Below are positions 5,571-26,270 of a DNA stretch of 34,902 bases, one piece after another; within the stretch, counting starts at the first letter, position 1; each line of letters begins with the position of its first letter. The DNA is from Candidatus Zambryskibacteria bacterium RIFCSPLOWO2_01_FULL_39_39 (GTDB taxonomy: Bacteria > Patescibacteriota > Minisyncoccia > Phycocordibacterales > WO2-35-19). The stretch spans positions 23,022 through 57,923 of the forward strand of contig MHWB01000003.1 of the NCBI GenBank assembly GCA_001823925.1. The letters are read 5' to 3'. The notes under the pieces were generated by a model. The model ran no database searches. It was not told the DNA's origin and was given only the letters and a program-made list of their open reading frames with translations. Made by a program: the position numbers and the translations under genes.

Positions 5571-6017
5571 ATGAATAATATAAAAATTTCGGGAGTTAAT
5601 ATGGAGGAAAGGAAAAAACTGGATATAAGATCTGGAGATACGGTTCGTGTTACCCAAAAAATAGTTGAAAAAGATAAAAAGACAGGCAAACCAAAAACCA
5701 GATTGCAGGACTTTGAAGGTCTCTGTCTGGCGGTAAAGCATGGCAAAGAAGCGGGAGGTACTATTACTTTGAGAAAGGTGGCTTCAGGTGTTGGAGTAGA
5801 GAGGATTTTCCCCATCTATTCACCAATGATAGAAAAAATAGAAGTAACTAAACGATCTAAAGTGCGTCGCGCCAAGCTTTATCACATCCGCGAAAAGGCA
5901 GCAAAAGATGTCAGACGCCAAATGAGAAATGTTAGGGAGGTGCCAGAAGTAGAAGTGGCTACTCTTCCAGAAGCAGTGGTTCCATCTGAAAATCTCGACC
6001 TCACCCCAACCAAATAA
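5571..6017 (+). CDS. rplS: Ribosomal protein L19 (bL19)
   Basis: Large-subunit protein L19, which contributes to inter-subunit bridges. The core (residues about 12-115) contains the L19 signatures RSGDTVRVTQKIVE, RLQDFEGLCLAVKHG, GTITLRKVASGVGVERIFPIYSP and KIEVTKRSKVRRAKLYHIRE. A Glu/Pro-rich tail of about 30 residues is added at the C-terminus. Elsewhere rplS is usually found with trmD and rpsP; its position behind rplB is unusual. A terminator follows at once. Confidence 0.97.
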   Translation: MNNIKISGVNMEERKKLDIRSGDTVRVTQKIVEKDKKTGKPKTRLQDFEGLCLAVKHGKEAGGTITLRKVASGVGVERIFPIYSPMIEKIEVTKRSKVRRAKLYHIREKAAKDVRRQMRNVREVPEVEVATLPEAVVPSENLDLTPTK

Positions 6018-6026
6018 ATTTAGTTT

Positions 6027-6062
6027 GCCCCTCTCCTAGCTCTAGTAGAGGGGCTGTGTTTT
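6027..6062 (+). terminator. Terminator of the rplC-rplS operon
   Basis: GCCCCTCT (6027-6034) pairs with AGAGGGGC (6047-6054), followed by TGTGTTTT. The arm CCCCTCTCCTAG also resembles the arm of the dispersed CCTCACCCCC repeat found at 25.1 and 26.2 kb. Confidence 0.75.
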
Positions 6063-6991: not shown

Positions 6992-7117
6992 ATGGAATAT
7001 GTTATTTGTGATTTCTGCGACAAAGGATTTAAGAGAAAAAAATCTCAAATAAAACTGGCAGTAAGACATTATTGTTCAATACGATGTTCAGAACAAGCTA
7101 GGAAGAAAGGAAAATGA
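6992..7117 (+). CDS. Zinc-finger fragment, split-off N-terminus of an HNH protein
   Basis: A 41-residue reading frame with one zinc finger: Cys-x2-Cys (ICDFC) and Cys-x3-Cys (YCSIRC). Its TGA overlaps the ATG of the next gene (ATGA at 7114-7117). It aligns with the first finger of the intact neighbour at 7485 (YCKVC then YCSISC), and this frame plus the next reproduce that neighbour's domain order. A -1 shift at GGAAAATGA would fuse them exactly. It is therefore probably the detached N-terminus of a duplicated gene, translated by coupling or lost. Confidence 0.65.
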   Translation: MEYVICDFCDKGFKRKKSQIKLAVRHYCSIRCSEQARKKGK

Positions 7118-7488
7118 TTGAATGTTTTGTTTGTAAAAAACTAGCATACAAATCATTAAAAGATCTAAGAAATTCAAAAAGTAAAAAGTATTTTTGTAGT
7201 CAAACTTGCGGTAACGTGTGGATAGGAAAACAACAAAGGGCTGAAAATAACCCAAACTGGGCAGGAGGAACATCTTCATACAAGATTTTGTTAAAGAGAA
7301 CAGACTCTAAGCGGGCATGTGTTTTGTGCGGAAAAGATGATCATAGAATACTCTGTGTTCATCATGTAGATAAAAATAGAAAAAATAATAAAGTACAAAA
7401 TTTAATGTGGTTATGTAGAAATTGTCATTTTTTAATTCATCACTATAAAAAAGAATTGCACAGATTATTTAATAAACAAAAGATATGA
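7114..7488 (+). CDS. Zinc-finger HNH endonuclease, copy 1 (C-terminal part)
   Basis: 124 residues. The N-terminal finger has CFVC and YFCSQTC; the region ENNPNWAGGTSSYKILLKR links to an HNH domain with CVLCGKDDHRILCVHHVDKNRKNN, then NLMWLCRNCHFLIH. The His-His, Asn and His of the beta-beta-alpha-metal fold are all present, with two CxxC pairs for structural zinc. Such proteins resemble phage and homing HNH nucleases that cut DNA. It overlaps its neighbours by four bases on each side (ATGA), so the three frames form one unit. Target and role are unknown. Confidence 0.85.
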   Translation: MIECFVCKKLAYKSLKDLRNSKSKKYFCSQTCGNVWIGKQQRAENNPNWAGGTSSYKILLKRTDSKRACVLCGKDDHRILCVHHVDKNRKNNKVQNLMWLCRNCHFLIHHYKKELHRLFNKQKI

Positions 7489-8006
7489 CAGTTTCATACT
7501 GCAAAGTTTGTAATAATAAATTTTATCCAAGACCGTCTAATATAAAAAGAGGTTGGGGTGTATATTGTTCCATAAGCTGTAAAAACATAGGGACTCAAGT
7601 TATTAGACAAAAAGTTTTTTGTTTTATTTGTAAAAAGGAATTAATGAGAACAACTGCACAACTAAGCCATTCAAAAAGCGGAAATTTTTTTTGCAGTAAA
7701 TCTTGTCAGACTAAATGGAGAAACACTGAATTTATTGGTCCAAAACATGCTAATTTTAAAGATGGTAAAAATTCTTATCAAAGTGTATTAAAACGATATA
7801 AGATCAAACAGATTTGTAATTACTGTGGAGAAAAAGACACCAGAATATTAGCTATCCACCACATTGATGAAAATCACAAAAATAATGACATAAATAATTT
7901 AACTTGGCTTTGCCACAATTGTCATTCATTGGTGCATTATGATAGTGTAGAGAAGCAGAAGTTTCTAACAAAACACAAGAAACAATGCAAACAATGGTGG
8001 TCGTAG
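7485..8006 (+). CDS. Zinc-finger HNH endonuclease, copy 2 (intact)
   Basis: 173 residues with two treble-clef-like fingers (YCKVC/YCSISC and FCFICKK/FFCSKSC), a linker GPKHANFKDGKNSYQSVLKRY and an HNH domain (CNYCGEKDTRILAIHHIDENHKNN, then NLTWLCHNCHSLVH). It is clearly a paralogue of the preceding pair of frames. The last codons (Trp-Trp-Ser-stop) lie inside tRNA-His: the stop TAG at 8004-8006 is bases 8-9 region of the tRNA. This suggests insertion of the unit immediately upstream of, or against, the tRNA gene. Probably a selfish or mobile nuclease unit. Confidence 0.85.
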   Translation: MTVSYCKVCNNKFYPRPSNIKRGWGVYCSISCKNIGTQVIRQKVFCFICKKELMRTTAQLSHSKSGNFFCSKSCQTKWRNTEFIGPKHANFKDGKNSYQSVLKRYKIKQICNYCGEKDTRILAIHHIDENHKNNDINNLTWLCHNCHSLVHYDSVEKQKFLTKHKKQCKQWWS

Positions 8007-23030: not shown

Positions 23031-23897
23031 ATGATTTTACACGGGTTTCCTGTCAAGGAGAAAATAAAAGAAGTATTGATAGAAAGGATAAAAAAGCTTG
23101 AAAAGAAGTCATTTTTGGCGATTGTTCAAGTGGGAGATAGAGCTGACTCAAACGTTTATGTGAGACAAAAGCAAAAATTTGGAGAAGAAATAGGGGTGAA
23201 AGTTTTAATAAATAAATTTGATGTAGACATAAAAGAAGAAGATTTAACTAGGGAAATTAAAAAATTAAATGAAGATGAAAGTGTAAATGGTATTATTGTG
23301 CAACTGCCTTTACCCAAACACATTGATACGGAGAAAATAATAAATTTAATTTCAATACAGAAAGATGTAGACGGGTTAGTGTCAAGGACGACCCTTAAAC
23401 TGCCCCAGTCCCAAAGGGTTGTCCTTGACACTATTTCCGCCACTGCTCGCGGAGTTTTGGCTCTGCTTGATTATTACGAAATCACAGTTAAAGATAAAAA
23501 GGTAGCGGTGATAGGTCAGGGTATTTTGGCAGGCAAACCAATAGCTCTGGAGTTAGAAAAGAGGGGGGCAGAAGTTTTTAGGTGTGATGTAGATACCCCA
23601 AATATTTCGGAGATCACAAAGGGGTGCGATATTTTAATTTCGGCAGTTGGTAAAGCGGGGCTAATAACAAAAGAGTTTGTAAATCCTAAACAAGTAGTTA
23701 TTGATGTTGGTATAAATAAAATAACGCCCCCTAACCCCCTCTTACTTCAAGAGGGGGAACAAAAATCAAAAATAGTGGGAGATGTAAATTTTGAAGAGGT
23801 TTCTCCTATTGTTTCCTCCATTACTCCAGTACCTGGCGGCATCGGCCCTCTTACGGTCGCTTGCCTCTTTGAAAACCTCCTTGATTTATGTGAGTGA
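23031..23897 (+). CDS. folD: Methylenetetrahydrofolate dehydrogenase/cyclohydrolase FolD
   Basis: 288 residues, interconverting 5,10-methylene- and 10-formyl-tetrahydrofolate. The catalytic Tyr/Lys motif YVRQKQK, NGIIVQLPLP, KDVDGL, SATARGVLALL, the NADP loop GQGILAGKPIA and the C-terminal PVPGGIGPLT are present. Two segments do not fit the family and coincide with palindromic DNA: VSRTTLKLPQSQRVVLDT after KDVDGL, and TPPNPLLLQEGEQKSK inserted between DVGINK and VGDVNFEEV. The frame stays open, so the protein may carry these as surface insertions. Supplies one-carbon units with GlyA, ThyA and DHFR encoded further on. Confidence 0.95.
   Translation: MILHGFPVKEKIKEVLIERIKKLEKKSFLAIVQVGDRADSNVYVRQKQKFGEEIGVKVLINKFDVDIKEEDLTREIKKLNEDESVNGIIVQLPLPKHIDTEKIINLISIQKDVDGLVSRTTLKLPQSQRVVLDTISATARGVLALLDYYEITVKDKKVAVIGQGILAGKPIALELEKRGAEVFRCDVDTPNISEITKGCDILISAVGKAGLITKEFVNPKQVVIDVGINKITPPNPLLLQEGEQKSKIVGDVNFEEVSPIVSSITPVPGGIGPLTVACLFENLLDLCE
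23379..23431. repeat. In-frame palindromic element 1 inside folD
   Basis: GTGTCAAGGACGACCCTT (23379-23396) and AAGGGTTGTCCTTGACAC (23414-23431) pair over 18 positions with one G-U wobble, loop 17 bases. The outer TGTCAAGG/CCTTGACA is shared with the palindrome in argS (33752-33780). Confidence 0.85.
23726..23759. repeat. In-frame CCCCCTCTT-type repeat inside folD
   Basis: CCCCCTCTT (23735-23743) and AAGAGGGGG (23749-23757) enclose ACTTC; the preceding CCCCCTAA resembles the left part of the intergenic repeats at 24781, 25093 and 26225. In frame it encodes PPNPLLLQEGE, a peptide typical of translated copies of such repeats. Confidence 0.8.
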
Positions 23898-24776: not shown

Positions 24777-24820
24777 CGAACCTCACCCCCCAACCCCTCT
24801 CCTTGCGAAGGAGGGGGGAG
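24777..24820. repeat. Dispersed CCTCACCCCC palindromic repeat, copy 1
   Basis: AACCTCACCCCCCAACCCC then CTCTCCTT-GCG-AAGGAGGGGGG. Arms pair over about 11 bases. It lies just after the SIMPL stop. It is a diverged relative of the two identical copies downstream. Confidence 0.85.
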
Positions 24821-24918: not shown

Positions 24919-25095
24919 ATGTCAATAATCAATTACTTTAAAGAAACAAAAGGGGAGTTGAGCCATGTCAATTGGCCAACCAGAAGACAGTCAATTATTT
25001 TTTCTTTGGTCGTCATTATTATTTCTGTCCTCACCGCATTCTTTTTGGGGTTGTTTGATTTTATCTTCTCTAAGATATTAAATTTATTTATATAA
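24919..25095 (+). CDS. secE: Preprotein translocase subunit SecE
   Basis: 58 residues, the small essential subunit of SecYEG. The amphipathic helix FKETKGELSHVNWPTRRQ carries the signature ELxxVxWPTR, followed by the single membrane helix (about 25-49). Very short but normal for bacterial SecE. It starts at ATG 24919 without SD and its TAA stop (25093-25095) is the first triplet of a palindromic repeat. nusG follows, the classical order. Confidence 0.95.
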   Translation: MSIINYFKETKGELSHVNWPTRRQSIIFSLVVIIISVLTAFFLGLFDFIFSKILNLFI

Positions 25096-25138
25096 CCTCA
25101 CCCCCAACCCCTCTCCTAGATGCAGGAGAGGGGAGAAA
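25093..25138. repeat. Dispersed CCTCACCCCC palindromic repeat, copy 2
   Basis: TAACCTCACCCCCAA then CCCCTCTCCT (25108-25117), loop AGATGC, AGGAGAGGGG (25124-25133) and AGAAA. Identical over 46 bases to 26225-26270. It begins with the secE stop codon and fills most of the gap to nusG. Confidence 0.95.
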
Positions 25139-25700: not shown

Positions 25701-25804
25701 GTTAATATCATATTTCGCCAAAAGTAAATTTGTAAAAGTCCTCGGGTCGCCTATTTCATGGCTTAACCAGACTTTTGAAATTCACTTCTGGCTTCACAAT
25801 CAAA

Positions 25805-26227
25805 ATGGCAAAAAAAATAACAAAAAAAATAAAAATAGTGATAGCTGCTGGTAAAGCAACCCCAGCGCCTCCTGTGGGGACAGCTCTGGGGCCTGCTGGT
25901 ATAAATATTGGTGAATTTGTCACCAAGTTTAATGAAGCGACCCGTGGTATGGAAGGATTGGTGCCAGCCGAAATCAATGTCTATGAAGATCGGACTTTTG
26001 ACTTTATTCTCAAAACTCCACCCGCTTCCAGTCTTATAAAAAAGGCACTTGGTATTGAAAAGGGCGCCGGTAAAACTCCGAGTCAAAAGGTAGGTACTAT
26101 CACTCGTAAACAACTTGAAGAAATCGCTCAAATCAAAATGGTTGATTTAAATGCCAATGACCTAGAAGCTGCTGTTAAAATTATTGCTGGCACTTGTAGA
26201 TCAATGGGGGTGGAGATGAAAGGATAA
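25805..26227 (+). CDS. rplK: Ribosomal protein L11 (uL11)
   Basis: 140 residues, the GTPase-associated-centre protein. Starts [43 protein letters not shown] with the family's Pro-rich hinge; the C-terminal RNA-binding domain is [36 protein letters not shown] and ends [13 protein letters not shown] 25805 preferred over 25775, giving the standard N-terminus. The 100 bases after nusG hold an AAAAGTC/GACTTTT inverted repeat but nothing else I can name. In most bacteria rplA follows; here a repeat and a terminator follow. Confidence 0.97.
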
Positions 26228-26270
26228 CCTCACCCCCAACCCCTCTCCTAGATGCAGGAGAGGGGAGAAA
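26225..26270. repeat. Dispersed CCTCACCCCC palindromic repeat, copy 3
   Basis: Identical over 46 bases to the copy at 25093-25138; again the first three bases are the stop codon (here of rplK). Confidence 0.95.

Follow-up and report, generated by a model that had tools for sequence, protein, structure and literature searches.

The window analysed here, a stretch of 34,902 nucleotides (GC 39%), comes from a Patescibacteria-type genome (G000) of about 800 kb in 13 contigs that is 98.9% complete. It carries a folD gene (23031..23897, + strand) that encodes 288 amino acids and hosts two palindromic insertions. One of these (23720..23759, + strand) is a palindromic element of a dialect found with DUF559 genes, having the head AATAACGCCCCCTAAC and the arms CCCCCTCTT and AAGAGGGGG, and is translated as ITPPNPLLLQEGE. 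The arms (23735-23743 and 23749-23757) enclose a loop of 5 nt, and the hairpin folds with -16.4 kcal/mol (z -4.4). An earlier note on this DNA had claimed that the peptide PPNPLLLQEGE is translated in frame within folD. This is what the sequence at 23727-23759 gives (CCC CCT AAC CCC CTC TTA CTT CAA GAG GGG GAA), and the predicted FolD peptide spanning the hairpin insert is ITPPNPLLLQEGEQK. The folD genes of two genomes from the same genus (G001 and G003) both lack its 13 extra codons. In solved FolD structures (3p2o), the insert falls at a short turn that joins the strands ..VVDVGINR and KIVGDVDF...

Were folD a pseudogene, the earlier note had conceded, its claim would fall. The gene is, however, intact and under purifying selection. 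Both PF00763 (1.5e-33) and PF02882 (2.7e-47) match FolD over their full length, with matches that span the hairpin insert. Amino-acid identity to the folD genes of the same genus is 67-68%, with dN at 0.23-0.24 and dS at about 2.1-2.3, for a dN/dS of about 0.1, with the caveat that dS is near saturation; the codon-position pattern in this comparison is as expected for a coding gene. The presence of the insert in the mature FolD protein is inferred.

The second palindrome (GTGTCAAGGACgACCCTT...AAGGGTtGTCCTTGACAC; 23377..23433, + strand) folds more strongly, with -36.5 kcal/mol (z -9.3), and is translated as SRTTLKLPQSQRVVLDT. It belongs to a different family from the hairpin insert, resembling the AAGG-loop-CCTT palindromes that adjoin the RAYT genes of this genome. 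In the stretches searched, it has one relative, which lies within ligA (contig C10, about 58877). The two same-genus relatives have a much shorter folD loop at this position, and neither insertion is present in them. Thus, the gene does hold two different palindromes, as had been proposed, one a DUF559-associated hairpin and the other a RAYT-like doublet. Given the likeness of the second to the RAYT-adjoining palindromes, folD may be hosting repeats from two nuclease systems.

The earlier note also took the folD hairpin to be the same kind of element as the repeats downstream, and suggested a genome-wide search for the motif. In the window, the pattern CCCCTCT-N3..30-AGAGGGG occurs 4 times, against 0.00 expected from shuffles. 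Across the whole genome it has 23 copies with an exact hairpin, and the reversed pattern, used as a control, has 0. A covariance model of the family, built from 18 copies, extends this to about 62 non-redundant places; besides these searches, about 153 kb of the genome's own stretches were used. This one model recovers the folD copy together with those at about 24780, 25095 and 26227, so that the likeness in kind stands. Identity does not, as the folD stem (CCCCCTCTTA) is a sub-dialect of the CCTCACCCC repeats.

These three downstream copies are intergenic, on the + strand and of the CCCCTCTCC dialect: 24780..24817 (model match at contig C3, 47794-47849, E 3.2e-9), 25094..25134 (C3, 48109-48164, E 3.4e-14) and 26226..26266 (C3, 49241-49296, E 9.1e-14). 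The last lies directly at the stop codon of a 150-aa open reading frame (25775-26227; rplK by eye). A further intergenic copy, having a longer spacer between head and hairpin, lies at 5999..6053 (+ strand; hairpin 6028-6053). Candidate places discarded as spurious were an antisense open reading frame at C7:3020 and the N-terminal extensions of ligA and of an XerC/D-like integrase; the place at C3:56641 was discarded as a weak match (E 0.66). Elsewhere in the window, at 7114-8006, are two neighbouring paralogous open reading frames having zinc-finger/HNH-like patterns.

The consensus of the 18 copies is ACCTCACCCCCAACCCCTCTCC...GGAGAGGGGAG. On one side of the hairpin lies a head, AACCTCACCCC or AATAACNCCCCC, and in several copies this head is separated from the main hairpin by an additional one, small and variable. 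The dialects of the stem (CCCCTCTCC, CCCTCCCC, CCCCCTCTTA, CCCCTCTCTTA, CCCCCCTTA and CCCCTCACC) differ in sequence with pairing kept, and three of ten stem pairs are altered on both sides. The repeats occur singly, as doublets that face outward (uvrB and truB hold examples), and flanking DUF559 genes. An Rfam scan of the window returned only a tRNA, with no Rfam family matching the repeat. In the 18 copies, GTAG is not among the invariant columns, being sporadic and confined to the spacer, and their consensus has no CGTC end tag.

An absence of other copies within genes would have counted against the earlier note's proposal that a mostly intergenic repeat has been inserted in frame. About 18 repeat places lie inside 14-15 coding regions of this genome, all in frame, and the proposal is therefore supported. 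The genes are uvrB (two copies), uvrC, a beta-CASP RNase, folD, a GH15-like enzyme, trmD, mnmA, tsaD, tsaE, fmt, tgt, truB (two copies), an intein-bearing protein (two copies), and a few others. In-frame copies were, of course, sought through open frames, and insertions that break the frame are possibly undercounted. The other repeat places appear to be true gene borders, as judged from start and stop context rather than from homology. In the intein (L097, contig C4, 10500-13616), an NYN nuclease domain replaces the usual homing endonuclease, and two palindromes lie within the N-terminal splicing part.

Empty sites are observed within the genus for several in-frame insertions, including those in folD, tgt and leuS. 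Two genomes with 92-94% DNA identity (G004 and G007) differ in tsaD, where only G004 has an 81-nt copy of the family (27 codons), and hold two different palindromes in the mnmA loop. In the uvrB, truB, tsaD and mnmA genes of relatives, other, unrelated palindromes occupy the same loops, which favours tolerance of the loop over conserved function. Further families of in-frame palindromes were seen in the same loops of sister species (for example, CTCGAGAGCAACTCTCGGAGCGC..., with the peptide SREQLSERDWREKE), at L128 (tsaD of G005), L133 (uvrB of G006) and L119 and L120 (uvrB of G004 and G007).

A search with PF04480 showed that G000 has eight DUF559 genes, which is unusually many for its 800 kb. 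Each of the eight adjoins hairpins of the folD-insert family. Inverted repeats of head plus hairpin bracket the genes (for example, C3:13765-14339 and C11:68853-69328). The four commonest dialects among solo copies, that of folD included, account for 41 of 52 solo places, and each matches a hairpin beside one of these DUF559 genes. The folD stem dialect itself recurs in the repeat that adjoins the DUF559 gene at C13:16254-16574. For the smaller dialects CCCCTCACC and CCCCCCTTA, no exactly matching DUF559 gene was found in this genome.

In tgt (L094) and leuS of G000, a whole DUF559 domain lies in frame, with a copy of the repeat on each side in inverted orientation; the corresponding empty sites in the genus are 4-5 tgt genes and five leuS genes without DUF559. 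A DUF559 unit is likewise present in G004 and absent from G007. At this one near-identical empty site, no target-site duplication is visible; about 50 nt differ, and the exact ends are unresolved. The repeat heads face outward around the units of G000 and inward in the genus g261, and unit architecture is therefore not uniform. In some units (L395 on contig C9 of G004; L103 on C11 of G000), a TATAAT-like box lies between the left head and the hairpin, so that the repeat may supply the promoter of the DUF559 gene. One DUF559 gene is split over two frames (G003:C6:8996-9216), a decaying copy; a tandem pair with equal scores (G369:C13:33253-34138) is a recent duplication.

DUF559 is a small PD-(D/E)XK nuclease with the invariant residues E, D, E-x-D-G, H, D and R. 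Its profile matches the PDB entries 3r3p, a "Mobile intron protein" (E 2.4e-5), and 3hrl, and the relatives of the domain include Vsr and I-Bth0305I, an EDxHD homing endonuclease. In Caulobacter, the DUF559 protein VsrA is required for a DNA-damage response in vivo (PMC12907096). Its role and the homology to homing endonucleases make nuclease activity in DUF559 plausible.

The association with hairpins is observed well beyond this genome. At 50 DUF559 loci from Patescibacteria, the eight of G000 included, perfect GC-rich hairpins within 250 nt are found on the upstream side of 41 and on the downstream side of 39, compared with 9.6% of control windows. At 76 named loci, mostly from Bacteroidota with others from Cyanobacteriota, Chloroflexota, Pseudomonadota and elsewhere, hairpins within 300 nt are found upstream of 57 and, likewise, downstream of 57 (control windows, 10.7%). 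Over the two sets, 75-82% of DUF559 flanks thus have such a hairpin. Both samples are non-random, consisting of best-scoring matches. Among the 76, 48 lie in open frames longer than 700 aa, including LeuRS, MetH, RecG, IleS and ValS-like proteins; this is not a population estimate, as sampling was biased towards relatives of the query. Units with hairpin ends lie in frame inside tgt, LeuRS, MetH, RecG and IleS. Several named loci come from isolates (Flavobacterium cucumis, Leeuwenhoekiella marinoflava, Dysgonomonas and Marinilabilia), which excludes errors of binning as the source of DUF559 loci in enzymes.

In two phyla, a DUF559 domain occupies the LeuRS loop that follows WIGKSEGAEVEFEI and precedes VFTTRPDT (L205 of G095, L206 of G116 and L102 of G000; L221, L222, L228 and L242 in Bacteroidota). 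In ten LeuRS-DUF559 proteins, the HIGH and KMSKS motifs and the nuclease residues are all invariant, and both the DUF559 domain and its linkers have low dN (dS is saturated). An AlphaFold model of LeuRS-DUF559 made with ten sequences is poor (mean pLDDT 59); it agrees no more than weakly with a separate DUF559 domain and loose linkers, and carries no weight as evidence here. In a tree of 88 domains, the Patescibacteria residents of LeuRS and Tgt form one clade (SH-aLRT 96) that includes one Bacteroidota domain (L217) and is separate from the Bacteroidota residents of LeuRS. Placing the LeuRS location on this tree needs seven changes, of which at least two are forced by well-supported branches; DUF559 has thus probably entered this loop more than once. 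In Tgt, the same DUF559 site is occupied in two genera (L402 of G008 and L094 of G000), with an empty tgt in the relatives from G000's own genus, and this could reflect either homing or repeated entry.

The folD palindrome is, then, probably a non-autonomous solo copy of a mobile element that has hairpin ends and carries DUF559, with DUF559 inferred to be its mobiliser. The full-length unit would be a DUF559 gene between two inverted repeats, each a head plus a GC-rich hairpin. By analogy with the action of RAYT/TnpA-REP proteins on REPs and REPINs, the nuclease would recognise these hairpins, probably in an extruded or single-stranded state during replication, and cut or nick there, allowing single or paired repeats to be copied into new sites. 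Insertions in genes would survive only if the frame is kept and the site is a tolerant surface loop; the survivors would then be translated as Pro/Gly-rich linkers. The repeat family, the in-frame copies and empty sites, the differences in presence and absence, the DUF559-hairpin association and the matching of dialects are matters of observation. The mobilising role of DUF559, including the cutting step, is inferred without data on transposition, cleavage or expression, and DUF559 could be a mere passenger.

Passengers are just what the DUF559 genes would be if these were ordinary REPs moved by Y1 (RAYT) transposases, the genes being carried between REPs. RAYTs have been proposed to mobilise REPs (PMC3116915, PMC8266576), four RAYT-like genes are present in G000, and Y1_Tnp is found in 38 of 47 genomes checked. 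None of those four genes, however, has the repeat family within 1.5 kb; their palindromes are different (GTCAAGGTTGAACCTTGAC and the like). Nor do any of 32 Y1 loci examined have C-rich hairpins of the DUF559 type on both sides, and nine DUF559-bearing genomes among those checked lack Y1_Tnp. In G000 and eight relatives, repeat count rises with DUF559 count (rho 0.71, p 0.03), and its correlation with Y1 count is not significant (rho 0.51, p 0.16). This test is weak, of course, as it has only nine genomes and these are related. Further, one relative (G006) has no DUF559, yet holds 17 repeats, implying that repeats persist or move without a resident DUF559 gene. On adjacency, dialect and presence across genomes, RAYT was judged less likely to be the mobiliser, and this explanation is regarded as unlikely.

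Two other explanations dispense with a dedicated mobiliser or with the translated insert. The repeats might form in place, through slippage during replication or repair templated by a hairpin, and be retained for a role at the level of RNA (in mRNA stability, termination or pausing), with DUF559 unrelated. The stems do fold strongly, and many copies lie directly 3' of stop codons, where REPs can affect mRNA. Local origin is nevertheless very unlikely, given a head sequence and dialects common genome-wide, paired units, differences in presence and absence, and the unrelated palindromes in the same loops of sister species. No orthologous repeats that retain their position in different genera, with compensatory changes, were found. 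Alternatively, the insert might exist in DNA and not in protein, removed by mRNA splicing or skipped by ribosomes, as with the byp elements of yeast mitochondria. Bypassing elements of comparable size exist in Magnusiomyces mitochondria, and stable hairpins do lie inside coding regions here. Neither process, however, requires that the frame be kept. Every intragenic copy found is in frame and free of stops (a count biased by the open-frame search), the tsaD polymorphism of 81 nt is a multiple of three, and in LeuRS whole DUF559 domains are read through, with low dN in domain and linkers. On these grounds, removal or bypass is very unlikely.

The DUF559-borne element preferred here has likenesses to several known systems. 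Rickettsia palindromic elements (RPE) also lie in frame in housekeeping genes, and the literature on Rickettsia and REPs describes repeats within genes including uvrB and truB, both affected here as well, and a class tagged with CGTC, which is reported to lack a transposase gene (PMC3733652). The present family differs in its sequence, its lack of the CGTC tag, and its tie to DUF559. With the REP/REPIN-RAYT system, in which REPs flank a RAYT nuclease gene (PMC3116915), it shares hairpin singlets and inverted doublets, a small nuclease gene flanked in inverted orientation, and repeat and nuclease families matched genome by genome. Here, however, the nuclease is a PD-(D/E)XK protein rather than a Y1 protein of the HUH type, no GTAG tag is conserved, and the nuclease gene also lies in frame within core enzymes. 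The EDxHD homing endonucleases (I-Bth0305I; PDB 3r3p) offer a homologous domain in host genes, and the same LeuRS loop is hit repeatedly. Unlike them, these units have hairpin repeat ends and many unrelated targets, and no intron or intein takes the insert out. MITEs, too, are non-autonomous copies whose inverted ends are in common with a gene-carrying element of the same genome; in this case, the parent gene is neither a DDE nor an HUH transposase (and a transposase role has not been demonstrated), the ends are hairpins of 20-26 bp, and no target-site duplication was seen at the one near-identical empty site available. Neither a DUF559-hairpin element nor hairpin-flanked DUF559 domains inside core enzymes were found in the literature searched, which was covered through titles and abstracts and excluded paywalled work.

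The wider claim is that DUF559 with inverted hairpin repeats constitutes a separate and widespread class of bacterial mobile element, which seeds REP-like palindromes across genomes and leaves stop-free, unspliced domains in LeuRS, IleS, MetH, RecG and Tgt. On this the balance is even. REP-like palindromes are common in bacteria, and the CGTC/RPE class has no known mobiliser; DUF559 is a concrete and directly testable candidate for the enzyme family that mobilises palindromes. Palindromes in frame within genes were long a Rickettsia curiosity, and are now found in a second, unrelated bacterial group. If this reading is right, many core enzymes would owe their extra annotated segments to it, and it would offer a natural experiment on the tolerance of protein loops to insertion.
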